Source: Branchiostoma lanceolatum (Eukaryota > Chordata > Leptocardii > Amphioxiformes > Branchiostomatidae). Taken from it: DNA of 64,000 bases. The stretch spans positions 9,161,410-9,225,409 of the forward strand of contig NC_089724.1 in assembly GCF_035083965.1 (NCBI RefSeq), in the 5' to 3' direction. Position 1 is the stretch's first letter. Each line of letters opens with the position of its first letter. The translations under genes were made by a program, and so were the position numbers. Of the stretch, positions 1-53,177 are shown piece after piece. The notes under the pieces were generated by a model. It was not told the DNA's origin. It worked only from the letters and a program-made list of their open reading frames with translations, and did no database searches.

Positions 1-1965
1 GTTTTCACCTCATAAACATTTCAATTAACAGTTTGGGTATAAAATCTGGTTCTCCAGTTCTTTCCGTTAGTCACTGACGAAAGATAGTTGTGTTGGATGC
101 TGTCTGACATTTTCAAAATTTCATCTATTTGCTTGGGAATGACTTACTTTTCTAGGCGTATCTTTATCCATCTCTATCTATAGATATAGATATTATTATA
201 TATGATTATATATTTATCTTCAGATATACATGAAAATTCGGCTATTATTCCCTTCCCTACTAGGCTTAAGCCGTTGTGTCCGTTGATGTCAACAGTAGGT
301 CCGTCCTGCTGGACGCCATCGCCATGTTATTTTCAGGTACTCGCCAAACCGCCGGCAATGCCAGTGTAGACCAGGTTAACGTGCGCACCATTGGCCACAG
401 GAGGCGGAGGGAGGGGAGACTGGGGCAGGTGGTGAAGACGAACATCCTGAAATGAGAAAGATATATATTCTTACACTGTGTTAATATAATTACATGCTAC
501 TGAACTTTGATGTAAGGCTATGTTGATTTGATTATATGAATGACATCCGCGCGCGCATCAATTCTCCTCCGTTTCCACACAAAAAAGTTTGGGACCATAC
601 TGTAAATCGTAAAAAAACAGCTGCAAAATGGTATAATATATGCCGTAAATGGCAAAAAAATTTATTCTGGAAAACGGATATTAATGTCGTAAAATGCCAA
701 AGTCAGTTCTTAAGTCAAAGAAAAAGATGTAAAAGAACGAAAATGAAGAGTCTTTTGTTCGGTATACCATACTCAGAGTGTTAAGTTTTGTTCATCCTTC
801 CTGGCCACGTATGTTTCATAATGAAGGTAACGTTTTGCCAAACTTTTTATTTTATTTTTCATATAACACACTCGCATAAGTTCTAGGGTTCCCAGAGGAT
901 GTCGTCCATATAATCAAATCAACACGACCTACTGTAAAATACGAATAATTAAGATGACTGTCAGACTGAGGAGCTTGTACCTGTAGGGAGAACAAACTAT
1001 TAATCTCCAAGCAGATCTACCGTTACAATTAAGGCAGTATCCATGGGTCGAAACAGCATCCATATGCCACCCGATGGCGTTTCGGCCCATTGCCAACCCG
1101 TAGATCTGACTAGATATTAGGAAGAGCATCCTTGATCAAAGATAAAATGCCCTTTGAGATGTTACGCTTGCCAATAATGCCAATGATAAAAAATGGATCC
1201 CATTTCCATTTTGTCTGCATTACAACAGGTCAAAACAAATGCAAAGTCAACATCGGGTACCACAAAACGTGTTAAACTATAGGTGTTACAATGTCATGGA
1301 ATTTTAGATTTACTTCAAAATAAAAAGTGCACTCCGGAAAGACCTGTGAGTGTGTCAGTGGTCTTCTACTTTTCTATAAAGTTTAACGTTTGCACGTTTC
1401 CTCAACTATCTTGTCTGAGCACACACCCATCCTGCCCTAAACCATTTATGACCCTTCCCTGAGTATACTATTAATATTTCGACTGTGAAGATCAGGTTTA
1501 TGCATTTTAACCGGCATATCATATTTTCATTGCCTCACTAATATGAAAAGTTGAAAACATTTTAGTTACGTTGCAAAAGTATCGCCGTACCGATGGATTG
1601 ACGTTCAGTACTGTGTTAATCTAAAGTGTGTCGATATCATCGTAAGAAAAAAAAATGGCGGGCACTGTCAACATTTTCTTTCACTGGAAGAACACAGGCG
1701 TTGTACGCAATCCCCGCGGGCACTGACAGCAATCTGAGCCAGAACAAAAGGCAAAATCCCTGACCTATGACTGTCGCCTGCTTTTGTATTAACAATACGG
1801 CCTTTCTCTGGAGACTAGTGCCAACATTACCTTTCTTACACTGCAAGGCATGTCAATTTTTGCATCTATTTTCATATCTATAGCTATATATCTCTAGCTA
1901 TATTAGCATTTGAGCTACTAGCTATTATTTGAGCTATTAGCATCAACTTGAAGAGTCCCTCACTA
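1..1965. other. Region downstream of the LRR receptor gene, no gene seen
   Basis: No coding exon could be supported here. The stretch holds a degenerate copy of the dispersed repeat built around CACTGACGAAAGACAG (about 60-135), one MITE (513-931) and a single arm of the CCAAGCAGATCT foldback family near 990-1,025. Part of it should be the 3' UTR of the minus-strand LRR receptor gene. I found no canonical AATAAA in the first few hundred bases after its stop. Confidence 0.6.
513..931. mobile_element. MITE, GGCCATGTTGATTTGATT terminal inverted repeat family
   Basis: The ends are inverted repeats: a left arm reading TGTTGATTTGATTATATG, and at the right end ATATAATCAAATCAACA. The interior shares blocks such as AGTTTGGGACCATACTGTAAA and a TTTTGTTCATCCTTCC block with copies at 15.2, 25.4, 28.7 and 55.9 kb. 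It has no coding capacity, so it is a non-autonomous element. The short 82-aa ORF inside it is not a gene. Confidence 0.8.
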
Positions 1966-4900
1966 CTAGCCGATGATGTTGATGTAAACATGACCCTCGT
2001 CAGGCGACGCATTTTGTTCTTCTCCTGACCCGACGTCATTGACTTTGCTATAGGTGTTGTCTGCCATCGGTCCCGGCATGTCGTACAGAGAGTTGTTGAA
2101 GGAGCTGGAGGAACCCTTGCGGTCCGTGGAGGGACTCGGGCGGGGAGTTGGAATGGGCACGTTACGACTTTCTTCATCATTTGCCCTGCTGTTTATCATG
2201 CTGTTCTTCGCTCCACACTGGGAAAGCTCCAAATAGGAACTGGTGATTCTGCCTGCCGTTGGTTCCTGCAGGGACTCGGGGTCCTGGTACGGGTTTTCCT
2301 GACTTGGGCGCCGATCAGAGCGCCGATTGTCGTTGATTATGTTGTATGGAGAGTCGTCTGTGCACGTGACACCACTGTCAGCTTCAGCTGAGTCGGCAGG
2401 CGCTTCCTGTAGTGTAACACGGCCACTCGGTTAGCGGCCGTCTGTACAGTTTGGCCCAGGACAACAATGGGCACATCAGAGATTAAAACTAACGTTACTA
2501 TTACACAAACGGAAACTACACTAAATATACAACAAATGGAAAATACCTGTTGTTGAGGATGATTAGGCGTGCGTGCATCCACGTGTTCGGCAGAGGAGAG
2601 TCCTTTTCTCTTCCACAGGAAAATGAGTGCCGCCATCACCAGGATTATTAACAACAGTGGCAATCCGACGCCCAAGCCCACCACTGTTGCTTGTGACAAG
2701 CCTGCAACTGCTTCCGTTGTGAACTCCACGCACTGGTCGTCTATTGCAAGTTTTTGCTTGAGCTCAATATTGTTACAGAAAACAGTCACGCAGGCTGTGT
2801 AGGGCGTGTCAGGAAGAAGGTCCAATATGGGGTCGGAACGACGGACCGTGGTGTGCACCGGTTTTGTTTTCATCCACTCTTTCTCACCGTGAGGTTTGTA
2901 TTTAATAACGAATCCAGTCAGATCCGTGCTGCCTCCGTGGATCCATTCTACCTCAGCACGAGAGTCTTTAACGTCATGTACCGTGACATTTCTCGGGCTA
3001 ATGCAGATTCCTGTTTGTTCTATTGTAGGGGACGGCGAGGGTGGTTTTGACGACTTTGGAGTTGTCACATAGGGAGATCCTTGGGAAGGAGTTGCCATTG
3101 AAGGTGATGGTGTTGGGCTGTATAAGGATATAGAACAGCGCATGAATTTACGACATAGACAAATAAAGATGAAAGAATCACGGCACGAAATCGAATATTT
3201 AAGGGAACTTTCCGAATGACGGAAACAAGAATTAAAGGTCGGGAAATATTTCAGCAGAGTTTACGGGGCCGTAAATGCCGCTGAAAGTAAGATTTGAGCT
3301 TTCCGCAACCTTTTCGCGTTCGTTAAGATGAATTAAATGAATACAATATCTTTCCATGGACTTGAAGCATCCTTATATATATCGTATAGATGAAACATTA
3401 TATTACATCAGTAACCGATATATTCTCGAAGCTGTTACATTCTCTCCTGGGGACTAATAGTGTCTCGATTTCTAAAATCTTGGGGAATAGCTGATATACC
3501 CGAAACGGTCTTCGATCTTTAAGATACACCCATTTGCAGTTAACACCGATCCCACTTAAGACATTTCTGTTACAGTCTTTTTTTTTTTTAAATAACGCAC
3601 GCGCACACATTGTACGTCTACTTTGTAGCAAAATTAGACATATAGTCCATACCTATCTTCGTCGGAGTTGATCTTCTTTTATCTGTGTTTATGCTACAGC
3701 TTACAAAAAACAGCAGTTATATTCTTAGGTTTATCCCCCCTTTTATGTTTAGGTAGAGATAAGCTGTCGGAAAGCGGGCGTTTTCCCTCGCAGTTATTTC
3801 TACCTTTCCGATATCCTTCCGTTACATATACGCTCGGTTTACATAATCCAATCTTATGTTTAGGTAGAGAAAAGCTGCCGGAAAGCGGGCGTTTTCCCAC
3901 GCAGTTATTTTTACCTTTCCTATATCCTTCCGTTACATGTAGGATCGGTTTACATAGAAGGGGGGGAGACCTCCCCCTATTATGTTTAGGTAGAGAAAAG
4001 CTGTCGAAAAGCGAGCGTTTTCCCTCGCAGTCATTTTTACCTTTCCGGTATCCTTCCGTTACCATTAAGCTCGGTTTACATAACCCCCTCTTATGTTTAG
4101 GTAGAGAAAAGTTGTCGGAAAGCGGGCGTTTTCCCTCTTATTTATTTCTACCTTTCCCATATCCTTCCGTTACATATAGGATCGGTTTACATAGAAGGGG
4201 TGAGACCTCCCCCCTTTTATGTTTAGGTAGAGAAAAGCTGTCGGAAAGCGAGCGTTTTCCCTCTTATTTATTTCCACCTTTCCGATATCCTTCCGTTACG
4301 TATAGGATCGGTTTACATAGAAGGGGGGGAACCTTCCCCCTTCTATGTTTAGGTAGAGAAAAGCTGCAGAAAGCGGGCGTTTTCTCACGTAGCTATTTTT
4401 ACCTTTCCGATATCCTTCCGTTACATATAGGCTCAGTTTAAATAACCTACTCTTCTGTTTAGGTAGAGGAAATTTGTCGGAAAGCGAGCGTTTATCCTCG
4501 CCATTATTTTTACCTTCCCGATATCCTTCCGTTACATATGGGATCGGTTTACATAGAAGGGGGGGGGGGACCTCGCCCTTTTATGTTTAGGTAGAGAAAA
4601 GCTGTCGAAAATCGAGCGTTTTCCCTCGCAGTTATTTCTACCTTTCCGATATCCTTCCGTTACCATAAGGCTCGGTTTACATAATCCCCTCTTATGTTCA
4701 GGTAGAGAAAAGCTGTCGGAAAGCGAGCGTTTTCCCTCTTATTTATTTCCACCTTTCCGATATCCTTCCGTTACATATAGGACCGGTTTACATAGAAGGG
4801 GGGAGACCTTCCCCCTTCTATGTTTAGGTAGAGAAAAGCTGTCGGAAAGCGGGCGTTTTCTCACGTAGCTATTTTTACCTTTCCGATATCCTTCCGTTAC

Positions 4901-7900
4901 ATATAGGCTCAGTTTAAGTAACCCACTCTTCTGTTAAGGTAGAGAAAAGTTGTCGGAAAGCGAGCGTTTATCCTCGCCATTATTTTTACCTTTCCGATAT
5001 CCTTCCGTTACATATAGGATCGGTTTACATAGAAGGGGGGGGGGACCTCGCCTTTTTATGTTTAGGTAGAGAACAGCTGTCGAAAAGCGAGCGTTTTCCC
5101 TCGCAGTTATTTCTACCTTTCCGATATCCTTCCGTTACATATAGGTTCGGTTTGCATAGAAGGGGGGGGGGGAGACCTCCCCCCTTTTATGTTTAGGTAG
5201 AGAAAAGCTGACGGAAAGCGGGCGTTTATCCTCCCAGTAATTTTTACCTTTTCGATATCATTCCGTTACATATAGGCTCGGTTTGCGTAACCCCCATTTT
5301 ATGTTTAGGTAGAGAAAAGCTGTCGGAAAGCGGACGTTTTCCCTCGCAGTTATTCCTTTTCTACCTTTCCGATATTCTTCCGTTACATATAGCCTTTTTT
5401 TATAGGCTCGGTTTGCGTAACCCCCATTTTATGTTTAGGTAGAGATAAGCTGTCGGAAAGCGGGCGTTTTCCCTCGCAGTTATTTCTACCTTTCCGATAT
5501 CCTTCCGTTACATATACGCTCGGTTTACATAATCCAATCTTATGTTTAGGTAGAGAAAAGCTGCCGGAAAGCGGGCGTTTTCCCTCGCAGTTATTTTTAC
5601 CTTTCCTATATCCTTCCGTTACATGTAGGATCGGTTTACATAGAAGGGGGGGAGACCTCCCCCTATTATGTTTAGGTAGAGAAAAGCTGTCGAAAAGCGA
5701 GCGTTTTCCCTCGCAGTCATTTTTACCTTTCCGGTATCCTTCCGTTACCATTAAGCTCGGTTTACATAACCCCCTCTTATGTTTAGGTAGAGAAAAGTTG
5801 TCGGAAAGCGGGCGTTTTCCCTCTTATTTATTTCTACCTTTCCCATATCCTTCCGTTACATATAGGATCGGTTTACATAGAAGGGGTGAGACCTCCCCCC
5901 TTTTATGTTTAGGTAGAGAAAAGCTGTCGGAAAGCGAGCGTTTTCCCTCTTATTTATTTCCACCTTTCCGATATCCTTCCGTTACGTATAGGATCGGTTT
6001 ACATAGAAGGGGGGGAACCTTCCCCCTTCTATGTTTAGGTAGAGAAAAGCTGCAGAAAGCGGGCGTTTTCTCACGTAGCTATTTTTACCTTTCCGATATC
6101 CTTCCGTTACATATAGGCTCAGTTTAAATAACCTACTCTTCTGTTTAGGTAGAGGAAATTTGTCGGAAAGCGAGCGTTTATCCTCGCCATTATTTTTACC
6201 TTCCCGATATCCTTCCGTTACATATGGGATCGGTTTACATAGAAGGGGGGGGGGGACCTCGCCCTTTTATGTTTAGGTAGAGAAAAGCTGTCGAAAATCG
6301 AGCGTTTTCCCTCGCAGTTATTTCTACCTTTCCGATATCCTTCCGTTACCATAAGGCTCGGTTTACATAATCCCCTCTTATGTTCAGGTAGAGAAAAGCT
6401 GTCGGAAAGCGAGCGTTTTCCCTCTTATTTATTTCCACCTTTCCGATATCCTTCCGTTACATATAGGACCGGTTTACATAGAAGGGGGGAGACCTTCCCC
6501 CTTCTATGTTTAGGTAGAGAAAAGCTGTCGGAAAGCGGGCGTTTTCTCACGTAGCTATTTTTACCTTTCCGATATCCTTCCGTTACATATAGGCTCAGTT
6601 TAAGTAACCCACTCTTCTGTTAAGGTAGAGAAAAGTTGTCGGAAAGCGAGCGTTTATCCTCGCCATTATTTTTACCTTTCCGATATCCTTCCGTTACATA
6701 TAGGATCGGTTTACATAGAAGGGGGGGGGACCTCGCCTTTTTATGTTTAGGTAGAGAACAGCTGTCGAAAAGCGAGCGTTTTCCCTCGCAGTTATTTCTA
6801 CCTTTCCGATATCCTTCCGTTACATATAGGTTCGGTTTGCATAGAAGGGGGGGGGGGGAGACCTCCCCCCTTTTATGTTTAGGTAGAGAAAAGCTGACGG
6901 AAAGCGGGCGTTTATCCTCCCAGTAATTTTTACCTTTTCGATATCATTCCGTTACATATAGGCTCGGTTTGCGTAACCCCCATTTTATGTTTAGGTAGAG
7001 AAAAGCTGTCGGAAAGCGGACGTTTTCCCTCGCAGTTATTCCTTTTCTACCTTTCCGATATTCTTCCGTTACATATAGCCTTTTTTTATAGGCTCGGTTT
7101 GCGTAACCCCCATTTTATGTTTAGGTAGAGATAAGCTGTCGGAAAGCGGGCGTTTTCCCTCGCAGTTATTTCTACCTTTCCGATATCCTTCCGTTACATA
7201 TACGCTCGGTTTACATAATCCAATCTTATGTTTAGGTAGAGAAAAGCTGCCGGAAAGCGGGCGTTTTCCCTCGCAGTTATTTTTACCTTTCCTATATCCT
7301 TCCGTTACATGTAGGATCGGTTTACATAGAAGGGGGGGAGACCTCCCCCTATTATGTTTAGGTAGAGAAAAGCTGTCGAAAAGCGAGCGTTTTCCCTCGC
7401 AGTCATTTTTACCTTTCCGGTATCCTTCCGTTACCATTAAGCTCGGTTTACATAACCCCCTCTTATGTTTAGGTAGAGAAAAGTTGTCGGAAAGCGGGCG
7501 TTTTCCCTCTTATTTATTTCTACCTTTCCCATATCCTTCCGTTACATATAGGATCGGTTTACATAGAAGGGGTGAGACCTCCCCCCTTTTATGTTTAGGT
7601 AGAGAAAAGCTGTCGGAAAGCGAGCGTTTTCCCTCTTATTTATTTCCACCTTTCCGATATCCTTCCGTTACGTATAGGATCGGTTTACATAGAAGGGGTG
7701 ACACCTCCCCCCTTTTATGTTTAGGTAGAGAAAAGCTGTCGGAAAGCGAGCGTTTATCCTCGCAGTTATTTCTACCTTTCCGATATCCTTCCGCTACATA
7801 TAGGATCGGTTTACATTAAAGGGGGGAGACCTCCCCCCTTTTATGTTTATGTAGAGAAAAGCTGTCGGAAAGCGAGCGTTTATCCTCGCAGTTATTTCTA

Positions 7901-10900
7901 CCTTTCCGATATCCTTCCGTTTCATATAGGATCGGTTTACATAAAAGGGGGGAGACGTCCCCCCTTTTATGTTAAGGTAGAGAAAAGCTGTCGGAAAGCG
8001 AGCGTTTATCCTCGCAGTTATTTCTACCTTTCTGATATCCTTCCGTTACATATAGGATCGGTTTACATAGAAGGGGGGGAGACCTCCCCCCTTTTATGTT
8101 AAGGTAGAGAAAAGCTGTCGGAAAGCGAGCGTTTATCCTCGCAGTTATTTCTACCTTTCCGATATCCTTCCGTTACATATAGGATCGGTTTACATAGATG
8201 GGGGGAGACCTCCCCCCTTTTATGTTTAGGTAGAGAAAAGCTGTCGGAAAGCGGTCGTTTTCCCCCGCAGTTACTTTTACCTTTCCGATATCCTTCCGTT
8301 ACATATAGGATCGGTTTACATAACCCACTCTTCTGTTTAGGAAAAGAAAAGCTGACGGAAAGCGAGCGTTTATCCTCGCCGTTATTTCTACCTTTCCGAT
8401 ATTCTTCCGTTACCTTTAGGCTGGGTTTACGGTGCTCCCAGTTTTAGAAAACAACGTGGAACATTGAGCTAACAATTCCCCCGGATTGCTAATCTATAGG
8501 TCGGCGGGCATACTGTCTTTGGCCACCGCACAAATTCGCCCAGTCCGCGGATCGAGACAGCGCCGCCGGCACATTTGGCAGATTTGTGTTTTTTTGTTCC
8601 TTGTTTTGTATCAAAGCTCATCAAATAACGCGTGTTCTCACGCAGTTTTCCTTCTTATAATCTACATGTATAAGTAACTTATAGAAAGATCGCCGCTAAC
8701 AGTATTTTCTATTGTCGCTCACGAGTGTTGTTGTGTTCGGGTCAAAAGCGTAACGCAAGGACGTCTGCTTTTCAACTGCAAATTTATACAGTGTGAAGCC
8801 GTAAACAAGCTGGGGCGGTACGTTGAGATGGTAATGAAACATCTCCATATTTACTAGCGGAATGCCATGTGACAGGGCATTACCCAATGACAGACAAGGG
8901 TGGCTTTTTCAAACTAACCGTATATCCCAGAGACAGAGATTGTTTACAGCGAAGACAGCTCATGAAGGAAGTTTGAACTCAGTCGTTTCAACCCACGACG
9001 GCAAGTTATGGCCACGACGTTGTTCTTACCAACCGGAACCCGGACGGAAAAATGTAAAGCTGGGACAAGGACATCAGTCTGTACAACTTGGTGAAACCAA
9101 GGCGGTTTCATAGGATTATACTTCGTAGGTGAAACCAAGGAGGTTTTGGTGAAACGGATCCGCAGTAGGATGGAGATGCTGAACGGGGCATGCGGGCACG
9201 CGATTCGGGACGGGGAAATCATTACTTTGTTGTATCTCCTAATCTACCCGGTACCAGTGGAGACAACGGTTAAACAACGGCGTGAGTGAAATCGGAACCT
9301 TTCTACCTGTCTTGATCGGAACTATTCCTGGCGACTGGCCCAACACTGGGACCGGAATCGTGGACTTGGAAATGGCGCAAAATGGTGAAGGGAGAATTAA
9401 CCGACAATGTGAGATTCTGATCCCTCGTTGACCGCGTCAAGTACAAGTTAGAATTTAACGACTGATGACGAAACCGCAAGTACCTAGTAAGTGTTATTCA
9501 ACCCAAAATGATTGTATTATTACTATTCACTCTATTTGGCCAATTTCTACTATTTTCCTAGCGATCCGCGGAGCCTGGTAGGACTAATAAGATACTAGCC
9601 TGAATGCCAAGAAACCAAGAAATATCTATCGTCAAGAAAGATATTTTAGAGTTTGGGGGTCTGGCATCCAGGCTAATAAGATACGGGAGGGAAGAAAAGT
9701 TAGTGTTAGGGGTTACGTTTTGGTGTCGATGTAATAGTTAGCTAGGGTTGGAACTTGGAAGTACATTGTAATAGTCAGTAGTTGGGGTAAAGAATAGCCT
9801 GAATAGTTTATCAATGTTTGGGATAAGGTGACATTTTTAAAAAATGAAACTGGTAGTCCATATGTAAGAAATCATTTATTCCATTTTGTATGTGTATATT
9901 TGTAAAGGTGGGGAGGGGTCTCGCTATAATGGCGTAACACGTTTTTGTGCAGTATTATCATCTTTGAAATAAATTGTTCTAAACTTTTATCGGCCCTGTT
10001 GCCTTTCATATTCATATTTACCTGTCTATGTAAGGGTTCGGAATGTTTAAGCCATCCGTAGCAAGTTAAGTCGTCGTGAAGGATTAAATTAGATACTGTG
10101 TAATGAAAAAGGAAACTTATTGTAGAGCATACGTTTTAGCACGTTAAGCTCGTGTTTTTAGCACGTTTAGCTCGTGTTTTTAGCACGTTAAGCTCATAAA
10201 AAGGCTACAGAAAACACCAGGAAAGGTGTAGCTTTAGGTAGTCTTTTAGGCTGCGTGAACGGCACATAAACGTAGGGAAATCGTGACGGAAATAGATTAT
10301 AAAGATGGACGAAAGATTACGGAAATGTCTCAAGAAACTTACACTTTCCGTGTTGGATCTTCCGTAAAGGTACGGAAAATTGTCCATAACGACGCCTTTA
10401 CGCCTTGCAGATACAACGTTTGTAGCACGTTAAGGTCTTAAAAAGATCACGGAAAGCCCGAGGAAAGGTACAGCTTTAGGTAACCTTTCAAGCTTTGTGA
10501 ACGGCACATAAACGTAGGGAAAATCCTGACGGAAATAGGTGATAAAGATGGACGAAAGGGTACGGAAAGGTCTCAATAAGCTAACACTTTCCGTATTGGA
10601 ACGGACGGAAAAAGTGTACTTAACGACGCCTTTACGCGTCGAATAGTCGCGTAAATACACGTGAAGAAGTGCAGAAACGTACCTGAACGCACGGAAAGAT
10701 TGTCCATAACGCCTTTACGCCTTGCAGATACCACGCTTGTAGCACGTTAAGGTCGTAAAAAGGTCACGGAAATACCGAGGAAAGGTATACCTTTAAGCAA
10801 CCTTTCAAGCTGTGTGAACGACACATAACGGCAGGGAGAATCGTGGCGGAAATGAATGATAAAGATGGACGAAAGGGTACGGAAAGGTCTCAAGAAACTT

Positions 10901-13900
10901 ACACTTTCCGTGTTTCAACGTACCTAAAAATTGTCCTTAACGACGCCTTTACGCGTCGAAAAGTCACGTAAATACACGTGAAGAAGTGCAGAAACGTACC
11001 TAAACGTACTTCCGGAAAGGGCACCTTATATGCAAAATTTAAGCAGACGTACAGGGGTCGTTAAGTTGCGGAAATAGTGAATAAACGTCACGTTTACGCT
11101 GCGTTTAAGTAGGCTTAAATACCAGATTTCGTGCCGTGAATAGAATCATCTTGTCATTCATCATGTTGGTGTCATACTTTTCCGACAACAGGCAATGGCT
11201 ACTTGGGGGACTGTAAACATGTGTATACGTCAGTATATATCGCTGTCTTGGGTAATCGAGGTGGGCCGCTTGAAACGCGATTCCATCAGGGTATACATGT
11301 AGGAAACTATGGTGCATAATCTATAAATATTGTTGCTCTGAAATGAAAAATGGTTTGTTTGTATGAGAAGACGCTGTTGAAGAAACTGATATAAGGACAA
11401 TGCTGCATGACAAGCCGTGGTTTCAGCACTGAGACAATTTACTTCCTTTGACGTTTTACCTGAAAGAGGTAAAAATTTGCCATTTGTAACATTTACCAGA
11501 TCTGCACGGCGGGTTCTGTTGCTGGTGGAGCAGTTGTCGCTGGGCACGTCCCAAAGTCCTCTTCCCGTAGGCTTTTCAGAGAACGTCCTTGCAGCGACAC
11601 TGGAGAGGAGCAGGTGGGCGAACTTGGTTGGACGTTCACGGCTGTAAGGACAAGAAGAAATAAGTTAATGAATGGATGAAATACGTTTATTGCACGTTTC
11701 TTACAAACTAAGTACAGGTCATGGTAATAAAGCAGTTGTATAATTACAGTGATATTAAAAACATGGCATCTTACTACATCTAATAAGGACTAATTGATAC
11801 TGTTATGTACGTATTCAATTTCTTCTCGCTAGCTCTCAAGACAGTTGTAGATGTTTGAACATGAGGAGCCTGTAATACATGGTTTGTCTACTTCTATAAG
11901 GAATACACATTTTTCTGTGCTATTTGAGTATTGAAAACTTGGAAATTTATCTTGCCTAGTATACAATTAAAGAGAATAATTTTCTCATTGTTGTGAAATG
12001 TACAATATTGGCAAATTGTTTGCTGCTGGAGAAGTGTACTGCTCAACTGATAAAACCAATATATGTGAAGAAATTAGTGTAGAAAGTCTAAGATTTACAA
12101 ACTGTACGGAAGAGTTTGTTCGCACGGATACTGTAATTCGTATGCTTTATGTATCTCTACGGGACAGAAGGAGAAAAAACATTCTAGCACCTGTTTTGTT
12201 GATCCATTTTCCGAGATCGAGCAAGTCACAACTTGTGCAGATGAAACTTTTCCCCAAGGTTACAGCTTGGAGGCAAGGGAGATGTCGAAACACCCCTGTG
12301 ACAGAAAACATACAATGTGTCTTTAAACAACCGTTAACCATGTTTGTGTACACGTATCTCTGATATCAAATTATTGACTAATTATCAAATATCAGAAAAC
12401 AGGAAATTACAAAGCCTTCAGGAATCATAGTTTAACTGTGATATATCATATAGCCTTCATTAATATTAATCCGCCGGGTTACATACCCTTCATTAACATT
12501 AATCCGCCGGGTTACATACATCCGCCACTTTGAAAAACAGTGAGTTTGAGAGATCGCTAATGCAGCACCCCCAGGTATGCATAATTTAGATACACAGGAG
12601 TACATTATACTGGAGAGAATTGGGTTGGAGATCTGTTTGGATGTATCTTTTCAGGGTGGCGGAATTATGTACCCTGAATTATGTTAGTAGATGTTACTGT
12701 GTCCACTCTAGACCACTACGTACAGAAACTACTGAAAACCTATAACATGGTAATGTATACATACGCGGTGACCAGGTCGTCACTTTGTCAACGTTCAGAC
12801 TTAGCAGAGTAGTCAGGTTACCGAATGCGTCTGGATCTACCGACAAAATGCTCTGAAAGTTGTTACTGTAAAGGAAAACATGAAAACTGTAGTTTCTTTT
12901 TTATGTTCTCCGCGGCCGATAACGAGGTAATATCAAGCAATTTTGAGAGATGTGATATAAACATATTAGCTAGTTAAACGGTATATTGGTACTGAAGTTG
13001 TGAATACCTGGAAAGATCTAGAGTTTTCAGAGCCGGCAACGTCGAGAAAGCAAACGGGTGGATCTTCTGAAGCCCAGTCTGCCTCAGGGTTAGGCTGGTC
13101 AGGTGGGGGAGCGGAAGGTGTTGTCCTGTCTCTGACGATGGAGACAATGATGCAGACATCAAACCTTCATCCATTATATTGTCGATTTATATTCACGTAC
13201 TAGAGTCGTTAAAAGTACTAGAGTCGTCATGATTTCTGCAAAATCTAAATACAAGTTTGCTATACAACAGACTCACCCCGACCAATCGATCTCTTTGAAA
13301 CTCAGATTCCAATCAGCCATGACCCGACAAATCGCTTCCTAGGTTGCCTTAACGACTATATCTGGCAAAACAAACTCTCCAGTGAGATTTGGAAAGTGTC
13401 AGGTTCTAAAGGATGTTTACAGATCGACAATTATGGCAGTTTGGAAATGATACAAGTCGACCGCCATTAAACCTTTGAACAAAAATAGTTTCTACAACCT
13501 TTGTCCAAAGGTTAAATGGCGGTCGACTTGACACTTGTATCATTTCTTAACTGCTGTAATTGTCAATCTGTAAGCATCCTTTAAAAGCTGGCATCTTCCC
13601 GCATCTCACTGGCGAGTTTGTTTTTCCAGATTTAGTCATTGAGGCAAACTAGGAAGCGATTTGTGGGGTCCTGGCTGATTCGAATCTGACTTTCAAAGAA
13701 GTCGGGGTGAGACGGCATACTGAGGTTGTATACGCCTTGGCGCCGGGACCTCCACTTGCGATATCCTGCTGCAGCATTTTCGCTAAAGACAAATTGTGAT
13801 AAGGCATGAGTCTTGGAAATCCAACGAGATTAACGCCAAGGAGTGCATTTGACAGAGTTTTCTAATCTTCCGGGACAAAGTAGCTCTCTTACCTGATCGA

Positions 13901-16900
13901 GGAAGTGTTGTGAAGTCTCCAAGGCGAAGTTCCGTCAACATCTGGTTATTACGATAAATCGAGAATGATTCCAAGGACACGGGCAGAACTGGTATAGACC
14001 TCAGCCTGGAGTCTGACATACTTATCTGTGAAAGCGGACAAAGGGGATCGGATATGCCGTTCATGTCTATAACATTGGTTCTTGCACTCTACAGATAATA
14101 TTCATATGTATTTGTCAGAATATGAACCAAAACCTGTCGCATGAATTCAGCGAACAATACATTGAAATGACAAAATTAAGATGACAAACCACACGATAGT
14201 CGATATTCAAACGAAAATATGTTAGTGTACGCATGTCACTTATTACCAGTGGGCATTTGAGTTTGAGTTTGAGTTTTATTGAGATCTCCATTAGTGTTCA
14301 ATTATTACAATCTTACACTATTCTTCCTGGAGTCCATTCACATTGATACATTAAAATAAAACAAACAAGAAGAAAACATACACAAATGATAGACAGTCAT
14401 GACCAAAATCAAATGTGATACAAGACATCTACAATTGACAGACAGTAATGAACAAAATCAAATGTGATGCAATAAAAAGAGCTTGAGGGGTCAGAGGTCA
14501 ACTTGAAATACATATGTACATACATTCAGCTACCACCATTGTTGTAATGGCTTATTTGTGTACTTAAGTGTAATCAGTCTTTCTTTGAGAAATGTTTTGA
14601 ACAGTGAAGGTGTGGATGTTTTGATGTGTTGTGGAAAGGTGTTATATAATTTGATACATCTGTGCAGAAAGGTTCTGGTAGCTGAGGTGGTTTTGGGTTT
14701 TGGCAGTTTGAAACCCCCTCCTTGTGCAAGACGGGTATTGTGTTGATGTGTGTTGTCAATTCTCTGTAACCTTTTATAGATAGCTTCTGGTTTTTTGGCC
14801 GCCTGAAGTTTGTGAAACATGGCAAGAGTGCTTGTGTATAGTCTTACGTTAACTTTGGGCCAATTCAACCTCCTGTGCATGTCATTTATGTTGGAATCAT
14901 ACTTTGCATTTAGGACAAGTCTAGCTGCCTTGTTTTGTAGAATCTGTAGTTTATTCAAGTGAGTTTGGGAACTAGCTGACAAGAGGCAAGAGCAGTAATC
15001 CATGTGACTGAGGACAAGTGATTGTGTGACTGTTTTCAACGTGTCGCTCGTGAGGTAGTCACGAGATCTTGCTAATGCTGCCAAAGCGCTTGTCATTTTG
15101 GATCTAACGTTGTCCAGGTGTAGACCCCACGTTAACTGCTGGTCCATTTCAATCCCTAAATTTCGGTTTCTTAGACTCTTGTCTTAAACATACTACTGGC
15201 AACTGAAAACTATAATGGTAAAACTATTAATCTAATATCATAGTCGTCCGTTTCAAAAAAAGTTTTTGACCATACTGTAAATCATACAAAGCAGCTACAA
15301 AATGAGAAAATAGTTGCTGTAAGTTGACAAAAAATACTTCGGGAAACGGAAACTAATGTCGTAGAATGACAAAGTCAATTCCAAATTTAAAGAGGAAGAT
15401 GTGAAAGAACAAAAAGGAAGAATCTATATGTCGGTGTGCCATACTCTGTGTGTTAATTTTTGTCCATCCTTCCTGACCACGTAGATTTCATAAAGAAGGA
15501 AATTTGTTTTGCCAAACTTATTCGCACGCTCGCAACAGTTTTGGGGTCTCCAGAGGATGTCATCCATATAATCAAATCAACATGGCCTTACTCACACTTT
15601 TTAAGCTTTGTAGGGGTGCCCACACACGGTCACTGACGCTCACGAGTGGAAGGCCAAGTAGGCCCAAATGAGAGAGCTTCGGAAGGTCCCGAAACGTGTC
15701 GTCGGGGAAGGTTTCAATAGGGTTACTGCCTCCCATCCCTATGTGTTCTACAGAAACCAAGCCTGAAGAAAAAGTATACTGTCAGTATTCCATGTGTGTC
15801 AGAGTATCATGTGTATACCACTATGTGGTGGAAGCTGAACTTGCTGTTTTAAACCTTCCCGTTTGTAACGTTACAAGTAATTTTTGTTACACATAATTGG
15901 CATCTGCAATTGACCTAAATGTGACCCCCTTGTCAGATTTGATTACATGCTTTTTATCAAGAACATAAAAATGAAGAAATTTTAAGCAGTAAAGACGAGC
16001 GAAGAAATATAGGCTCAGTAAATATATCCTATTTGCATCACAAGATGAAACTTGCTTTCCGGTGAGCCTACATGTAACGTTACATGTAGAAGATAAGTAC
16101 AGTACGTGTACGGTATGTTTTAGCCTTGGAACTGGTTTTACCACTGTCATCACAAACGCATGTCAACAGCGATTTGACCTTTTTGAGGTCATACCATATC
16201 AAACAACAGAACACAGAACAAGACCAGCTAAATTTTCTGCTACAAAGATCTTAAACACCAACACACGCTCGCACAGACATGTACGTCATCAGTTGATCTA
16301 TCAGAGGGTCCGTCCCTTTCGGACCACTGCCTTAACACCAATTGGCAACGTAGATTGCTACTAAAACATTTAGTTGCCGTAATGACTACCAGTAACTCGG
16401 AGTGATATGTGTATGGCTGATAGATCTTCATGATAAGATTGGCGCATCAAACAATACATAATCGTACGTAATGAAGTTCGAATGTCGCTTGTTTCACTGA
16501 GCTGCTCTTGTAATTAAGAAGTCAAACCCAAATATAGAATTTTCACTGTAGACTAGATAACTTTTTCGATTTTCATGCATCTCCATGTACTTGTTTGTCT
16601 GCATATTAGCCTTTGGGCATGAACTTGCAATTATTAAGTTATTATTTGTTTTTATTATAATCAACCATTGATAGAGTATACTGTGTACGTACCTTGAAAT
16701 GTTGCTCCTGAGACATTAGTAAGAAAGTTTCCGTATATCTCTAAGACAACGACGTTGGCAAGATTGGCGAATGAACCGTCCTCCACAGTTCTGATCCTGT
16801 TAGTCTATACGGGGGTTAAGAATAACAATGTAAGCTTGTTTCTACTTCCATATCGACAAAAATAACACGACAAAGTCGTGAATCTCGATATGAAGATAGT

Positions 16901-19133
16901 CATTTTGATGTTGCTATTGAACAAGTTTTGGCTATGTACAAATGTATGCAGCCAAACCAAAAGAACAGCTACATCTACGTATATTGTCTTCTGCAAACCA
17001 AATAATGAAATAGTAATGAGTCCTATTGTATTGAAAGACACAATGCAGCACTATGAATTTATTTACTGGTAAATAAAGTTATTTGATAAGGAAACAACTG
17101 AATGAAAAGCTCCACAAAAGCAACACCAGAATGCAGTTGAAAATGAAGCAATTTGTATCAAAATTCTCCTTCATCATTGATCTCTACAAGGGAAACAGGA
17201 ATTTTCTATCATGTGCACATGTGCTGATAAAATGAACTCACATGAAGACGAAGATATTTCAGTTTCGTCAGCCTGGCAAAATCCTCCCTCCGTACCGCAG
17301 TCAGGCGGTTGTCAGCGAGGTCCAGCTCCTGAACGGACCAGAATGGTTAAGTTTAAGTTAAAATCCTCCCACACCATAATTGATGTATAGGGCGGTGCCC
17401 ATCTCCGTTTCATAGCTCTGGGGCCACACTGTGGTGCAATCACTGCAGCAGGGGGCTAGTCCACTGGCAGTGGAGTGTGTTTAACTTCCATACTGTTTCA
17501 TAAGTATGTATCATTTTTACAAAGTCTTTGGTATGACTCAATGCGCCTCTTGTCCAGAGGTGCCCTACCTGGGACTAGAACCCCAGTCCTTCTGGTCCAA
17601 GTAATTTGAACCAGATGTGGCAGAGTAGCAAATGCGCAGACCACTACACCACCGGGACACCCCCCGGACCAGAATGGATTCGCCCTTTATTCTGATGATT
17701 TTACTTTTTTACTTGTGAAGCGTTTTAATATGTTTTGATAAATGACAGAATATATACATTCTGTAACAATGATTGTGTAGAAAATAAAACACATTTTGTT
17801 TTAGAACGCTCACTATACACAGACATGCGCAGATCCCTTGTAAGTTCCATACAACTAGACAAGAAACATGCGCATTTTACAAAGAACGAGTACGAATTAT
17901 TCACATATAGTATGCCCCCTAAAGACTACAATATAATTGACTGTGTAAATTTGTGTAGACATACTTCAAGAAGAGACTCTGTAGATTTAAATAGAATATA
18001 ACATGTTCCTTTTCTTTTACTTCAATTATGTTACCTCATGCATTTAGCCCATGTTAGGCATGGATATGCAACAAAGTTCATATTCAATGCGTTCTGAAAG
18101 GGAAGAATTTTATCAAAGGAAACGAGCTGAGGAGAATGGTATGGCTCACCCATAGGTCTGTGGACGTCAAAGTTGATGCTGACATGTTCTGTAGTATATT
18201 GTACCTCAGGACCAATGACTGCAGTTTGACCTGATCACCAAACGCCCCGTCCTCGATAGAGCTGATGTTGTTCCTCTCCAGGAGCAGAGTGGTAAGGTTG
18301 TACAGTCCAGAGAACGCTGTCCGTGTGACTGTGGAGAGGTCGTTAGATGACAGGTCCAGAAACCCCAGGTTTGTGGCGCCGATGAAGGCCATACCAGGTA
18401 GAGTCTGGATCTTGTTGTCGCTCAAAGTCAGACGAGTTAAAGCCGGCATCCCCCGGAAGGTCGCGCTGGTCAGCACGCCGATGTGATTCGAATGTAGGTA
18501 CAGCACACGTAGCTTCTTGAGACGACCGAAGCTCCCATCTTCTATCCTTGAGATGCTATTGGACGAGAGGTTGAGCTCTATAAGAAGCGGGACTCCTGTG
18601 AAAGTCTCGATCCCGATAGAGGTGAGCCTGTTGTCTTGTAAATCGAGCATCTCCAAGCTGTCAAGGAAAGAATTACTTCCGAACGCAGTTATTGTTGTGA
18701 TGGTATTCCTGTTGAGATAAAGTCTCACAAGTTGTCTCAGCCCGTCGAAAGCCGAAGTGGGTACGGTAGAGATCACGTTCCCTCCTAACCGGAGAACCTG
18801 GAGGTTGGGCCGGCGACTGAATGGGGATCCAGGACGTGATATGCTAGTGATCGAGTTATCTTCCAGGTTCAGTTCCAGCAGGTTGGGAAGCAGAGGATTA
18901 CGGTTCAGCCCCGAAATCTGATTGTCGTTTAACAGAAAAATTTCCGTTGAAGAAGGTATGAGCTGATCCCGGGGATAGGCCGTAAGGGCTCCGTGACTGC
19001 AGTCGACGGTGGCGCCGTGACATCGGCATTGGGGTGCGCAGTCAAGGGCAATCACAACTCCGGCCATCGACATCAGGAGCGTGAGCAAGAGTGCGGACAG
19101 GCAAGACGCCCTTGTGTGGACCATGGTGGCCAG
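1966..19133 (-). CDS. LRR-FN3 single-pass transmembrane receptor, 10 coding exons, 949 aa
   Basis: Probable cell-surface receptor or adhesion protein. Coding exons in transcript order: 19124-18150 (ATG at 19124; exon opens at 19133 after TTTTTCACAG), 17328-17242, 16804-16693, 15762-15596, 14025-13893, 13125-13008, 12865-12765, 11641-11497, 3117-2547 and 2406-1966. Every join is in phase and the sum is 2,850 nt. The start lies in a strong Kozak context (GCCACCATGG) and opens a signal peptide (VHTRASCLSALLLTLLMSMA). An LRRNT cap with CxPQCxC follows, then about 21 LRRs. The first 14 are canonical (LxxLxLxxNxL) and those from exon 4 on are degenerate. Next come a partial LRRCT lacking the usual CDC motif, a Pro/Ser/Thr-rich stalk, FN3 (about 654-748), a TM helix (about 756-781) and a 168-aa tail. 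Tail tyrosines are Y824 (SPYNII), Y843 (YQDP), Y861 (SSYLEL), Y911 (YDMP), Y922 (YSKV) and Y944 (VYINI). The order resembles FLRT/LRIT proteins but the tail does not, so no symbol is given. Confidence 0.9.
3735..8430. repeat. Minisatellite array with a 1,686-bp higher-order repeat
   Basis: About 40 head-to-tail copies of a roughly 100-125 bp monomer. Each contains TTTAGGTAGAGAAAAGCTGT, TTTTCCCTCGCAGTTATTT, CCGATATCCTTCCGTTACAT and a variable linker. In many monomers the linker is a G-run followed by AGACC and a C-run, which can form a hairpin. Identical runs of distinct monomers recur at an exact 1,686-bp spacing: landmarks at 4,065, 5,751 and 7,437. This gives a higher-order unit of about 15 monomers in roughly 2.4 copies. 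After about 7,690 the array becomes a run of similar monomers. Long ORFs in both directions exist only because many monomer lengths are multiples of three. I treat them as non-coding. Confidence 0.95.
10130..11070. repeat. Tandem array of about 290-bp units, roughly three copies
   Basis: Three successive blocks share AGCACGTTAAGGTC, GAACGGCACATAAACG, ATAAAGATGGACGAAAG, GGTCTCAAGAAACTTACACT and AACGACGCCTTTACGC. Their starts are near 10,140, 10,430 and 10,735. The first is preceded by three short GTTTTTAGCACGTTAAGCTC repeats. The array lies in the same intron as the minisatellite but is unrelated to it in sequence. No protein is evident. Confidence 0.8.
13272..13711. mobile_element. Foldback MITE with arms of about 200 bp
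   Basis: The two halves are imperfect inverted copies. CTCACCCCGACCAATCGA at the left matches GAAGTCGGGGTGAG at the right. GCGGTCGACTTGA and AAGTCGACCGCCATT flank the centre near 13,470. The element lies wholly within the intron between LRR exons 5 and 6 and is non-coding. Confidence 0.85.
14256..15178 (-). mobile_element. 5'-truncated non-LTR retrotransposon (LINE), 3' part of the RT ORF
   Basis: A 205-residue open frame (15147-14530) encodes the thumb and C-terminal part of a LINE reverse transcriptase. It has the typical SLVLSHMDYCSCLL, LQILQNKAARLVL and RTFLHRCIKLYNTFPQHIK segments. The catalytic domain is missing because homology begins abruptly near 15,178. The 3' end finishes in tandem AAACTC units, as in many CR1/L2-type elements. 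It lies in the same orientation as the host LRR gene, in the intron between exons 4 and 5. Confidence 0.9.
15241..15590. mobile_element. Left-truncated copy of the GGCCATGTTGATTTGATT MITE at a splice donor
   Basis: The right end (GATGTCATCCATATAATC, then CAACATGGCCTTA) is intact and stops at 15,590. The left terminal repeat is missing or highly diverged. The interior matches the copies at 513 and 55,851. The intact end lies six bases from the end of LRR exon 4 (15,596), so the element begins inside the 5' splice site. Confidence 0.8.
17381..17662 (-). mobile_element. tRNA-derived SINE
   Basis: On the minus strand the head has a recognisable A box (TGGTGTAGTGGTCTGCGC, 17651-17634) and B box (GGTTCTAGTCCC, near 17,571-17,583). 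A non-tRNA body follows that contains GGGGCTAGTCCACTGG-like sequence. A body fragment of the same family lies on the plus strand at 39,368-39,487. It is a Pol III-type retroposon and not a functional tRNA, because no complete cloverleaf or CCA-adjacent stem can be drawn. Confidence 0.75.
17700..18005 (+). pseudogene. LINE fragment, C-terminal Cys/His-containing segment
   Basis: The 88-residue frame at 17,735-18,001 reads CNNDCVENKTHFVLERSLY and then an R-rich helix. This follows the pattern CxxCxxxxVEDExHFLxxCPxY found near the C-terminus of many LINE reverse transcriptases. The cysteine expected after HFVLE is an arginine here, which fits decay. No RT core is present on either side. It lies antisense in the first intron of the LRR receptor gene. 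Confidence 0.55.
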
Positions 19134-20604
19134 CTGTGAAAAACAAAGCACAGACAGGCGTTACCACTTTGGTTGTCACCGAGCGCACAATTGCCAACTC
19201 AGAAGTGGTTAATGGTAGATGTCAACACGATACTAGTAGTTCCTTATGATCAGAGATTGGGCTTGTGAATTTTCAAGGACAGCTCTGAATGACGATGTGA
19301 CAAGCGAAGTAATAGGCCCCTCTCTCACCAGACCCGCGGCACGTTGGCGACCTCGCTGCGACCATGCGATTTGACAGCGCGCTCAACTTCATCGACATTG
19401 ACTGTCCAACATGAATCGGACAGCGAGGTGTAAAAGATTCTCGGATCGCCCCCTGGCATTTTGACATTGTTGTTGACAACTGTACTGTTTAAGAAGAGTT
19501 GAATCGTTGTGAAACTATCTTCACCTTTACAAAGTTTCAGCATTTCAGACGACATAGAACAAACTTCTAACCTGATATATGCCGTTTGGTTCTGTCTTGT
19601 TCGTCTATATTTCGAAAAAACACTCGAGCTCCACTTGAACGTATTTTGCGCCAGACTTTGTTTCCTGAATTAGTCCAGTCAAGCATAGAATCAAGTAGTC
19701 TGACAAGATTGGTGCATACCTGTGTAATGACCATGGGCTGTCTTAAATCAACTGATATCGTTTATGTTTGTGGGGGCGTGTGTTGGTATTTAACACCTTT
19801 GCAGCAGATCCAGCCTCTTGGAAGCCTCTCGTAACTCGATCATTTCAGCGCTCAGCTCAAATGGCTTTGCCTTGCTTCATGTTTTTGAGGGTTTTTTTCT
19901 AGTCACTTTTAAAGTATCACCCGAACGAGTCATTCAAAATATCAAAGAATTGATACACTTTAACTTATACTTTTGTAACTAGAAGTGATGTGACACAAAT
20001 AATTCCATTGATGTCGATATGACCTTTACGGACAATGTTGTCTCACAAGGACGATACGTGGTGTACAGATCAGATGATGCGTACTGAAAACCATGTGCTG
20101 AAAATATCCTACATACAAATTGTAAGAACATTTTTTGAGTTTGTAACATCTGTTATGTAGTATATCCTTTGGCATATTATTCTCAATTGTTGTAGGAATG
20201 ACACGATTCTTTAGACTGATATTCATAAATCTGTTCTTGCCATAAGTATCGTTAGATTACTTGCCGAAATTGCCATATTTATTCAGAACCCTTTGTGGAC
20301 CTTCAACGATGTCAATGATTTCAACTTGAGGGTCGCATTGCAAAAACTCCTCATGGCGACCGCGAGTGGTGCTGCAGACAAGGATCTGCAAGACCTCGAC
20401 ATAACCAAATTTGGACGCACTGAAAACAAAATCGTGTCGTCTTGAAGGACGATAACCCATTTTCAAGGTGAAACCTTTTCAATCCTTTCTTATCTAATTC
20501 TTCCTTAATCTTAATTTTTCTTCCTCTTTTGATCTTGGCCATTTGCATGTTATTATAGTACTGTGCTACAATGACAGACTGCTAGAATGATTGCACTCCC
20601 TCCC

Positions 20605-28200: not shown

Positions 28201-31200
28201 AAACAAAGAAGCCAACAGAGTTCTGTGTACCTCCTCTAGGTTGGTGTTGATACAGTCCACACTGTTGGTCTGTCCAGCCAGTTTGACCATGGCGCAGTAC
28301 ACGTTGTACCTGACAGGGGACCTCTCATCAACACCGTTGTACAGGTTGTTCAAGCTGGGAAAAGAAATACAGGCAAAATACATAACTACTAGGAAGAAAA
28401 TAGTCACAAGTATCACAACTTTTCATTTTCAGCAAACTGCTTATAACCAAGCTTTCCTACAAGAAAGTGTGAGAGCGGCAGCTAATATCAATTCAACTTT
28501 TAAAAATAGATAGAGGGGTACATGAAACTTTATTACTTGCTGTAATTTTTCTGTGATATCTACAGATTTTGTCACATTTATCTGATTGCATGGAATTCAG
28601 TTTACATCACAAACCAACTTACCGAACAATGGGAAATTTGAGCTGCTTCTACAAGGAATAATATGACCATCAGCAATTTCAGGATGCTAAGGCCAAGTTG
28701 ATTTGATTATATTAATTTATATGGATGACATCCTCTGGAGACCCCAAAACTGATCTGAGTGTAGGAATAAACTAGCCTGAGTGTCATCCTGTTTCAGTTC
28801 CAGGCTCTACCTTCACCAAACAGTCTGAGATCGCTGCCATTCAAATCGTTTGGAATAAATGTATTCGTCCAGAAATCTGGACGGGCACGCTGATTGGCTC
28901 CTCCTATCAGAGCTCCATGGGGGAATTGTCCTTGTCACTCAACCTAACAACTTTCTCCACATGGTATCTCTGTAGGGACCACATCTTATTACGAACCACA
29001 CATACCAGTAATGGCCAAAAAAATGACCAAAAACATGGAGTTGATCTATGTCATAGATAGACAGATCCCAAGTTGTATAGACAAAGATCCCAATTGCAAG
29101 TAGTTTTTTTGTGTCAAATCTTTGTAAAATCGTCAGGATAACACTTTCTATCTGCCAAAAAGCAGGTACTACAGCCTATCTAAGATAAATAAACAAATCC
29201 TTTGGTCAGTTCTGGGATGGGGAATCCTTGCTGAGATAGCATGTGGAGCTCTGATAGATGGAGCCAATCAGCGTGCCCGTCCAGATTTCTGGACGAATAC
29301 ATTTATTCCAAACGATTTGAATGGCAGCGATCTCAGACTGTTTGGTGAAGGTAGAGCCTGGAACTGAAACAGGATGACACTCAGGCTACGAATAAACAAA
29401 AGTTTGGCAGAAAAAAGTTGCCTTCATTATGAAATCTATGTGGTCAAGAAGAATGAACAAAACTTAACACACAGAGTGGTATACCGAATAACAAATCCTT
29501 CATTTTTGTTCTTTCATATCTTCTTCTTTGACTTTGGCATTCAACTACATTAGTATCCGTTTTCCATAATTTTTATTTTTTAATCTACAGCAGATATTTT
29601 CGACGTTGACGAAGAGACAGAAAATTCATCTCGAAAGCTCCCCAGAGCAATCTTTTTTATGTTGGGTGTAATGCTTAAACGTTTGTCAAAAGTACAACAG
29701 ATATTTTCTCATTTTGCAGCTGATTTACAGTATGGCCAAAACTTTTTTTGTGTTGAAACGGACGAAAATTGATGCACGGGCGGATGTCATCCATATAATC
29801 AAATCAAAACTAAGGAAACAATTCAAGTCGTCTTACATTCTTAGCCTGAGCTCCTTCATCTTGTCTCCTCCTTTCACCACCTTCTCACACAGGGACAGGA
29901 CTACCTCGTCGATCTTGGCGGTCGGGGTGATGAACACCAGCGACAGGACGCTCGTTAGGAAACCCTCCACCTCTGTTGTTGGAGTGAAAAGAAATGACAA
30001 GATGTTCTTCTTGAAAATCAAGTGGTCATCAGACATTTTATTTTGACTTTTTTGAATGGCAACCTAACTGTTAAGAAATATCTTTTGAGCTGACCACTAC
30101 AACAACATGAAACTAGGGGCTTGGACATAGGTAATGGGATTGTGAGGTTTCCTATCAGAAGTAGATATAGAATATTACTTTTAACTCAGGTCCGCTTGCT
30201 CCCGAAGGGCGCATGGCGTCTCGGCAAACCCCTCTCCAGGCCAAATAATTTTTTGAGAGCGTTGAGGTTTTTGTGGGTTATAAGGGCAGAGTTACTCCAT
30301 TAAATCAACAGTATTTAGAAAGGGGAGACTTTATTCAATCAAAGGATGGTCTTACAGATAGATATAAGATACATAATTATACTAAGTCATAGAGGAACTC
30401 CTTAGCCTCTATACTATAGCAGGCTGTGTTGCTACTTTTGCTGTTCACACATATATACTGAGTGCAGCTGCAAAGCCTACATGTATAATAAAAAGTATTA
30501 TATCACTCACTCACTCACTCACTCACTCACTCACTCACTCACTCACACTCACTATCCAATTAACGTCTTCTGTTCCTCATCAACTGGGGGTTATACGTGC
30601 TTGCACATGGATGGGATAGCATTGAATATGGAGGCTAGCATTTATCTACAGCATTGATCGGTATAAACGATATCTGATAAGTACACGTTACACTCACGAG
30701 CTTCATCAGGTGACTTCCAGCACGTTTCCATGGCGTCGATGACCTGCATCAGGTCCGTGATCCATCCCGCGCCTGAGTTCTCCTCCGAGATCTCCGCACC
30801 TGTCGTCTTCAGGTATTTCCTCAGTTCTATTATCTGTGGGGTTCAAGGAAAACATGTTACAAACACATGGCAACACTGGAAGAACGTCCTACCTGACCGT
30901 AAACTCTATTCTACTCTACTCTACAGTGATACGAATATTACAAATATATATACAAATATAACATTCTGTTACTTGATTATGAATGTTTGCCCTGCTCTAT
31001 TCTAAGGCAGCGTGCATAGTCCAATGTTTAGCAGCCAGGGCTGCTTCCAGCTTTGAATTTTTCCCGTCCCACTCATTGTTTGGGAGCCGATGTTTTGAAT
31101 TTTCGCTGTTAAAGATACATTTTCATCAATTTTATGTCATTAAGTTCAGAATTTGGGATGGAAAGGATAATATTTTTTCCGTCCCAACAAGCAAATTTCC

Positions 31201-32123: not shown

Positions 32124-32376
32124 TTTACGCAGATTTTGGCCCCTTTATTCGTGAAAATACGGAAAATCCGCAACGTGCCGCCGTGCAGCAAAGAACTCTG
32201 GGTAAGTCAGGCGAGGTCATATAAAATAGAGGTGTGAAAAATACAATTTTCTATATAAAACATTTATCACGACTTTCCTATAATCTGTATCAAATCATAA
32301 ATAAAGACCATACAGATAATATTCACAAAGTTATCTATCATAACTGAGGGTTGTGTTCTGTGATTATTTCTTACAG
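32124..32376. promoter_or_regulatory. Candidate bidirectional promoter and POGLUT 5' UTR intron
   Basis: The EIF3M start codon ends at 32,123 on the minus strand. The POGLUT start codon is at 32,521 on the plus strand. A good plus-strand donor, CTGG|GTAAGT at 32,201/32,202, pairs with an acceptor TTATTTCTTACAG at 32,376. This suggests a 175-bp intron in the POGLUT 5' UTR. If correct, transcription of both genes starts within about 80 bp (32,124-32,201). No TATA box is visible, as is usual for divergent housekeeping promoters. The intron is an inference from splice motifs only. Confidence 0.5.
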
Positions 32377-32520
32377 TTGTCTCCCCTACCAGATGAGTGG
32401 AATCGTCTTGTGTCAAGGGTTAAATGCAGCGGAAGAGACAGAAACCAGAAACTTCAGTCTGGGTTTGGTCTCGTTTGCAGTCCAGGAGGGCTCAAACCGG
32501 CCAGAATATCACTGCAAACG

Positions 32521-52207: not shown

Positions 52208-53177
52208 ATTTTGGGACACTTTTCGGTAGTTTGTTTTGCAAGATGAAAATCACATGGATGACCCCGTGTGAGGATGTACGTCCTGACGTCTCACGGAAAG
52301 TTTTCTTGGTTTTTGGAACGTCTCGGACTTTATGTAGAGGTTGGGCGTGGCGAAGCTAGACTGCAGCTGGGAAGGCTGGACCAAGAAGTTGAAATTGAGT
52401 GAGACGCGGTGACGTCACGTGAAATCTCGCGAGACTTGGTCAATTGTTTAACTGTAACAAAGGTCGTGTTGTCACATGGTTATACTGAACAAGCCCTGCC
52501 GGGGACATGTAGTAGATATCAATCTAAACGGAAGTATCCAGAGATGTCTAGGCGATACAGCCAACACTAGAGGATATCATGACAGGAAGATTGAATATAG
52601 CACGACGCGGCGAGTACTGGCCCCTTAATACTGCCCTCTCAATTTGCTGAAACCTCAACGGAGGAAAATACAGGCTGAAACAGAGTTCTTTTCTTTTCTA
52701 AACCTCCCCGAATCTCAGACTTGAATCACCTTTTATTTTGAAAACGCATGTACCAGAGGTGATCACGGAATTCTGCCACGGCGCTGGAAAAGTTAAAACA
52801 GAGATGAGAAACATGAAATGCGCAGCCACGCAAGTATAGAAAAGACAGTTGTATAATCATGGTATAAATAAAGGTTTTGGATTTATCAAATCAGTTCCAA
52901 TTTGAGATGGATTAAGCTTGAAGCCATCTTTATTTTGGTCAAATTTATTTGATAAAGCCTCGCTCTTTGAAGATTCTATATGCCTTAATCCAAATGTGAA
53001 CAAAAATAAGCACAATCGTGATTCATTCATGATGATATATCGTCAGCATTGGTTCACGTATCACAAATATCCTATATCGCTATATGCCAGCGTACGCCAT
53101 TCAAATTACCGACTTTGTTCTATCCGAATGTATAATGCACTTCTCTTCTGGAGTTCAAAGCATCAACGTCCATGATC

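Follow-up and report, generated by a model that had tools for sequence, protein, structure and literature searches.

We propose, with a probability of roughly 0.8, that the 4.7-kb tandem array in this DNA is a non-coding minisatellite with nested higher-order organization that lies in the intron of a receptor gene and has formed by ordinary tandem-repeat turnover. The proposal is carried by a sharp gap in similarity, 87.8% on average among the monomers versus 99.9% between monomers fourteen places apart, together with an older four-monomer duplication nested inside the repeated block and with discordances between monomer bodies and their linkers. Coordinates (Table 1) refer to the window, that is, the whole 64-kb stretch of DNA analysed.

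Table 1. Features of the array and of its predicted host intron, in window positions.
Feature	Position	Strand	Remarks
Whole tandem array	3736..8430	.	39 monomers, m01-m39; TRF limits
Higher-order block 1	3744..5429	+	m01-m14, 1,686 bp
Higher-order block 2	5430..7115	+	m15-m28, 1,686 bp
Partial higher-order block 3	7116..7698	+	m29 up to the G-run of m33
Array remainder	7699..8430	+	rest of the m33 linker and m34-m39, the last truncated
Nested four-monomer duplication, first copy	4218..4692	+	m05-m08
Nested four-monomer duplication, second copy	4693..5187	+	m09-m12
Long linker example, palindromic arms	4189..4222	.	
Host intron, predicted	3118..11496	-	8,379 bp; between LRRCT exon and FN3 exon; phases agree
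LRRCT match, exon upstream of intron	11553..11621	-	
Open frame downstream of intron	2337..3117	-	FN3 domain; hydrophobic, transmembrane-like stretch by eye

The monomers follow each other head-to-tail, and the tandem units are flanked by non-array DNA, as in a minisatellite. The initial annotation had recognized this level and put the monomers at about 100-125 bp; the level stands, while the length is corrected to 110-132 bp, with a final monomer (m39) shortened to 99 bp. Two forms differ mostly in the linker: a long one of ~126 bp, in which a G-run is followed by AGACC or similar and then by a C-run, and a short one of ~111 bp, which has a C-rich stretch alone, without the G-run; m14 and m28 represent a type with two small insertions and the short linker. 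Among the 38 monomer junctions, 21 have long linkers (14 of them different) and the other 17 have the shorter form, so that the G-run/AGACC/C-run linker formerly ascribed to each monomer is present at only part of them. Linker form goes along with one base of the body, a C about a dozen positions before the linker, which is found in 8/9 short-linker and 0/12 long-linker monomers (Fisher p 4e-5; 21 compared, with m39, which ends before its linker, scored as short, and with m33 having the same body as m05). This association and the 237-bp period that TRF reports for the array suggest an ancestral short-long dimer beneath the present monomers. The mean similarity of 87.8% was obtained from 21 monomers (m01-m14 and m33-m39), the minimum being 74.8%. 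Further or degenerate monomers just outside the two array edges are unsupported (258/500 and 395/500 shuffles as good), and an exact 24-base monomer pattern gave 0 matches in a viral and in a genome contig collection, neither intended for animals. The CpG observed/expected ratio is 1.16 in the array and 0.84 in the whole window, and the G+C content of the DNA analysed is 41.7%, which, taken with the appearance of the proteins, may point to an amphioxus as host.

When offsets of 80-3599 were tried on positions 3701-8450, the best self-match was found at 1,686 bp, which corresponds to 14 monomers. The size of the block and its near-identity are thus as first described, but not the number of monomers, which had been counted as about 15; the landmark reported at 4065, 5751 and 7437 is found at all three positions. 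Mean identity of monomer bodies is 0.9995 at a lag of 14 (19 pairs) as compared to 0.863-0.889 at all remaining lags between 1 and 27, and when the order of m01-m33 was shuffled 5,000 times, no lag from 1 to 19 gave more than 0.929. Offset scan, lag-14 identity and shuffles together confirm the two-level organization claimed earlier. The sequence as given contains ~2.35 blocks and has both general properties of a higher-order repeat, near-identity at an integral multiple of the monomer and a block present in tandem at least two times. Between 3741-6012 and 5427-7698 (2,272 bases) we find one substitution, at 3899, and two indels, at 5035 and 5161, each of a single base in a G-run and opposite in sign; block 2 agrees with the beginning of block 3 at 586/586 bases, over which block 1 and block 3 differ at one base. 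Identity at this offset ends at 6012/7698, within a G-run linker, and the last six monomers, m34-m39, depart from the order of the block.

Since only one substitution per 2,272 bp separates the blocks, the last block copying appears to have been very recent, which agrees with the initial annotation. For Branchiostoma floridae, a mutation rate of 5.89e-9 per base per generation has been reported (PMC12862219; here as below, papers are cited from parts of their text). At this rate, which is perhaps not the host's, and assuming no gene conversion, the single substitution would date the last copying to ~37,000 generations before the present (range ~950 to 208,000).

Perfect register and near identity are, however, also what an assembly error leaves. 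The real locus might hold one 14-monomer block, or another number, with block 2 and the partial block 3 stemming from misplaced reads or merged haplotypes. The length of G-runs is a common sequencing error, and such differences account for both indels between the blocks, whose only other difference is the single substitution. Moreover, BflGb6, a comparable amphioxus array, has been reported as apparently misassembled in a draft genome (PMC3087553). We nevertheless regard an assembly effect as unlikely: the doubled sequence starts and ends at linkers inside the array and includes no unique flank, and the older, diverged duplication inside the block indicates that the same process acted earlier. 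Merged alleles in particular would be unlikely in an animal as heterozygous as amphioxus, for which 3.2-4.2% has been given, as at 3.2% the chance of finding at most one substitution is ~2e-30, an argument that leaves misplaced reads from one haplotype untouched.

The nested duplication comprises m05-m08 and m09-m12, which, judged by their sequences, look like copies made before the block itself was copied. Pair by pair they are 97, 97, 95 and 92% identical, and the mean of 95.3% was reached in 0.06% of 5,000 shuffles, with the best of all placements taken each time. The monomer tree unites m06 with m10 and m07 with m11 in its two starred forks and clusters m05, m33 and m09 (88/74). The fourth pair is weak, as m08 clusters with m03 (94/92) and not with m12, and 12/17 inner forks are open in this tree, whose bootstrap had not settled. 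With a duplication nested in the block, at least three layers can be told apart: the monomer (perhaps a dimer), ~four monomers and fourteen monomers. In addition, bodies and linkers are discordant in several monomers. The m12 linker is long and that of its counterpart m08 short, m33 combines an m05 body with an m04-like linker, and m38 has a short linker together with the base usual in long-linker monomers. Such combinations are as exchange or conversion would produce.

In the turnover that we envisage, a unit of ~111/126 bp would first have been amplified, after which the units would have diverged to a mean difference of ~12%. A stretch of ~four monomers would then have been duplicated and, very recently, a 14-monomer stretch copied in register, once or more than once, presumably by unequal exchange or replication(-repair) slippage. 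The layers themselves, how far each has diverged and the register of the block copies can be read directly from the sequence. Unequal exchange and slippage, the usual explanation of tandem-repeat turnover, are discussed for amphioxus minisatellites (PMC3087553) and for human arrays (PMC2588610). The length of the array would probably be polymorphic between individuals, and the array itself would have no role apart from being spliced out together with the intron. Besides the weak fourth pair and the mostly open tree, the mixed behavior of the edges speaks against this course of events: m39, at the right edge, is divergent (77-86% to the others), but so, to about the same degree, is the internal m14 (75-85%), while m01, at the left edge, is without such divergence (83-93%).

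The array occupies 56% of the predicted intron. Splicing from the GT donor at 11496 to the AG acceptor at 3118 connects the LRRCT frame to the FN3 frame with no intervening stop; as the predicted exon ends join in frame, the location in a receptor-gene intron given by the initial annotation is upheld. All frames concerned are on the minus strand. Frame 11493-11789 matches LRRCT just over the curated cut-off, frame 2337-3260 contains an FN3 domain followed by a hydrophobic stretch (by eye), and frame 18084-19160 contains many LRRs and, by eye, a signal-like start. Nine short minus-strand frames were scanned, 11493-11789 being one of them; of the others, 12974-13186 matches LRR_8 above the curated cut-off, 15572-15781 matches LRR_8 below it, and the remaining six are without a match that passes a cut-off. 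The host is an LRR-LRRCT-FN3 cell-surface receptor gene whose exon structure is a prediction. A LINE-like frame (14530-15183; by eye, no Pfam match) is also located inside the receptor gene.

Since 111 and 126 are both divisible by three, long stop-free frames run through many monomers on either strand. We rejected a coding role for the monomers, as units of 110, 112, 127, 128, 130 and 131 bp break the frame, and did not accept the array frame 3638-4441 as a protein, all three of its Pfam matches being below curated cut-offs. Rfam returned 0 matches at gathering score in the window. The same intron holds a second tandem array at 10134-11006, with units of ~242 and ~317 bp and a 22-bp unit at its left edge. 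In local alignments with the main array, 1/200 shuffles reach its score on the plus strand and 8/200 on the minus strand, but other parts of the window align to the main array as well or better, and kinship of the two arrays is unproven. Elsewhere in the window we observed an uninterrupted open frame of 569 aa at 32344-34053, in which a filamin repeat is combined with a glycosyltransferase 90 domain and whose product presumably resembles the POGLUT2/KDELC1 group; a reverse-transcriptase frame (RVT_1) with its following frame at 53176-54672; tandem repeats of ~110-120 bp near the right end (62772-63529); and an inverted repeat with 145-bp arms, 98.6% alike, at 28773-28917 and 29244-29388, which may be the termini of a mobile element of young age.

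Each monomer could alternatively be a small inverted-repeat, MITE-like transposon, in which case the array would be a tandem run of elements that abut end to end at the G-run/C-run linkers. Indeed, if the long-monomer consensus is cut between linker centres, its inverted ends match at 15/16 bases, and the array starts with a C-run, that is, with one such inverted end, whereas its right end is not located at one. The fold of a single long monomer as DNA is better than that of shuffled sequences (see below), and satellite arrays derived from MITEs are on record (PMC12628747). The window also contains other palindromic stretches, for instance 46815-47306 and 13292-13699, which are ~400-500 bp long, match their own reverse complement at ~82% and resemble foldback elements. 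Terminal inverted repeats, however, follow automatically from a single palindromic linker. A search of the 64-kb window gave no significant second copy of the monomer (best E 0.95) and no dispersed single copies with target-site duplications, nor was a target-site duplication identified for the array. We regard a transposon origin as quite unlikely. LanceleTn, a name for amphioxus MITEs, had no literature match.

The linker deserves consideration also in its own right, having been described earlier as able to form a hairpin in DNA or pre-mRNA. For DNA this holds: among the 14 distinct long linkers, 162/168 cells of the 12-base arms are paired (G-T included), and the DNA fold of one long monomer beats all 200 shuffles (z -3.87; 0/200 as good). 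As RNA in gene sense orientation, the same monomer folds unexceptionally (z -1.84; 10/200 shuffles as good). One arm position is mostly G-T, and the pair is improved in four linkers, by C on the 3' side in two and by A on the 5' side in two; elsewhere in the arms a mismatch occurs in 6/14 distinct linkers, two of these six having a further G-T, and across the 14 no arm pair has changed on both sides relative to its most frequent state. The arms are too little diverged for a test of pair maintenance. Hence, the hairpin is real as a DNA structure, which may aid breakage or slippage, and nothing indicates that it has a function or is maintained.

A stronger role has to be weighed, in which the hairpin is retained and drives amplification by stalling or breaking replication forks, or in which the repeats influence how the receptor gene is transcribed or spliced. 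Apart from the near-complete pairing of the arms, the identity between blocks starts and stops at G-run or C-run linkers; this is a weak argument, with two of two edges and linkers that make up about a quarter of a long monomer. In gene sense orientation the array contains 35 AAGGTA and 37 GTAACGG motifs, which might be decoy 5' splice sites, and in human ABCA7 an intronic VNTR influences splicing (PMC5954066). Yet the changes in the arms and the RNA fold described above do not favor such a role, and the variable sites of the monomer, 55/102 over 20 monomers, show no significant clustering (P 0.20 and 0.10), so that a conserved core is not detected in them. We consider this role very unlikely. 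It seems highly improbable that the monomers are palindromic mobile units joined end to end by 34-bp G-run/C-run palindromes that serve as recurrent break and template-switch sites, by which a euchromatic intron builds centromere-like multi-level repeats within one haplotype's lifetime.

The resemblance to centromeric higher-order repeats stressed in the initial annotation is supported in form, as in centromeric alpha-satellite DNA, too, diverged monomers in fixed order make up a block that is repeated almost unchanged. Alpha-satellite arrays, however, extend up to millions of bases, while ~2.35 blocks of an unrelated monomer are found here, and instead of a large array at a centromere we find 4.7 kb within a predicted 8.4-kb intron. 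The hornerin repeat of humans is coding. It shares with the human NBPF 3-mer and with our array a higher-order tandem organization in a gene, with nested levels in hornerin, yet NBPF units contain exons, whereas the array here is wholly intronic (PMC9584774). Large human tandem arrays are likewise locus-specific and in several cases intronic, with higher-order blocks reshaped by unequal crossing over; their higher-order example, however, is an LTR array with 3.5-kb units, and no intronic one is described as higher-order in the part of that paper cited here (PMC2588610). The amphioxus "mirage" minisatellites of the Adh3 and globin genes are in-gene tandem repeats as well, with units of 10 to 160 bp and repeat numbers that differ on two haplotypes (PMC3087553). 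In mirages, an exon-intron boundary is duplicated, whereas the monomers here stay within the intron; although the lineage is perhaps the same, we rejected this identity, as in the predicted structure the array spans no exon edge, and no other part of the window matches it significantly. A keyword search for higher-order repeats in invertebrate euchromatic introns or satellites gave no literature match.

Since higher-order repeats within human genes have been published, as have tandem arrays within human introns, the array is a further example of a documented class and, as such, expected and less surprising than the initial annotation implied. Its value lies in being a compact and readable record of turnover, with several duplication layers that lie within 4.7 kb inside a gene and outside any centromeric array observed here. 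If the host is as heterozygous as stated above for amphioxus, its blocks differ far less than two of its alleles would, and the length of the array should thus differ between haplotypes and be traceable in pedigrees.
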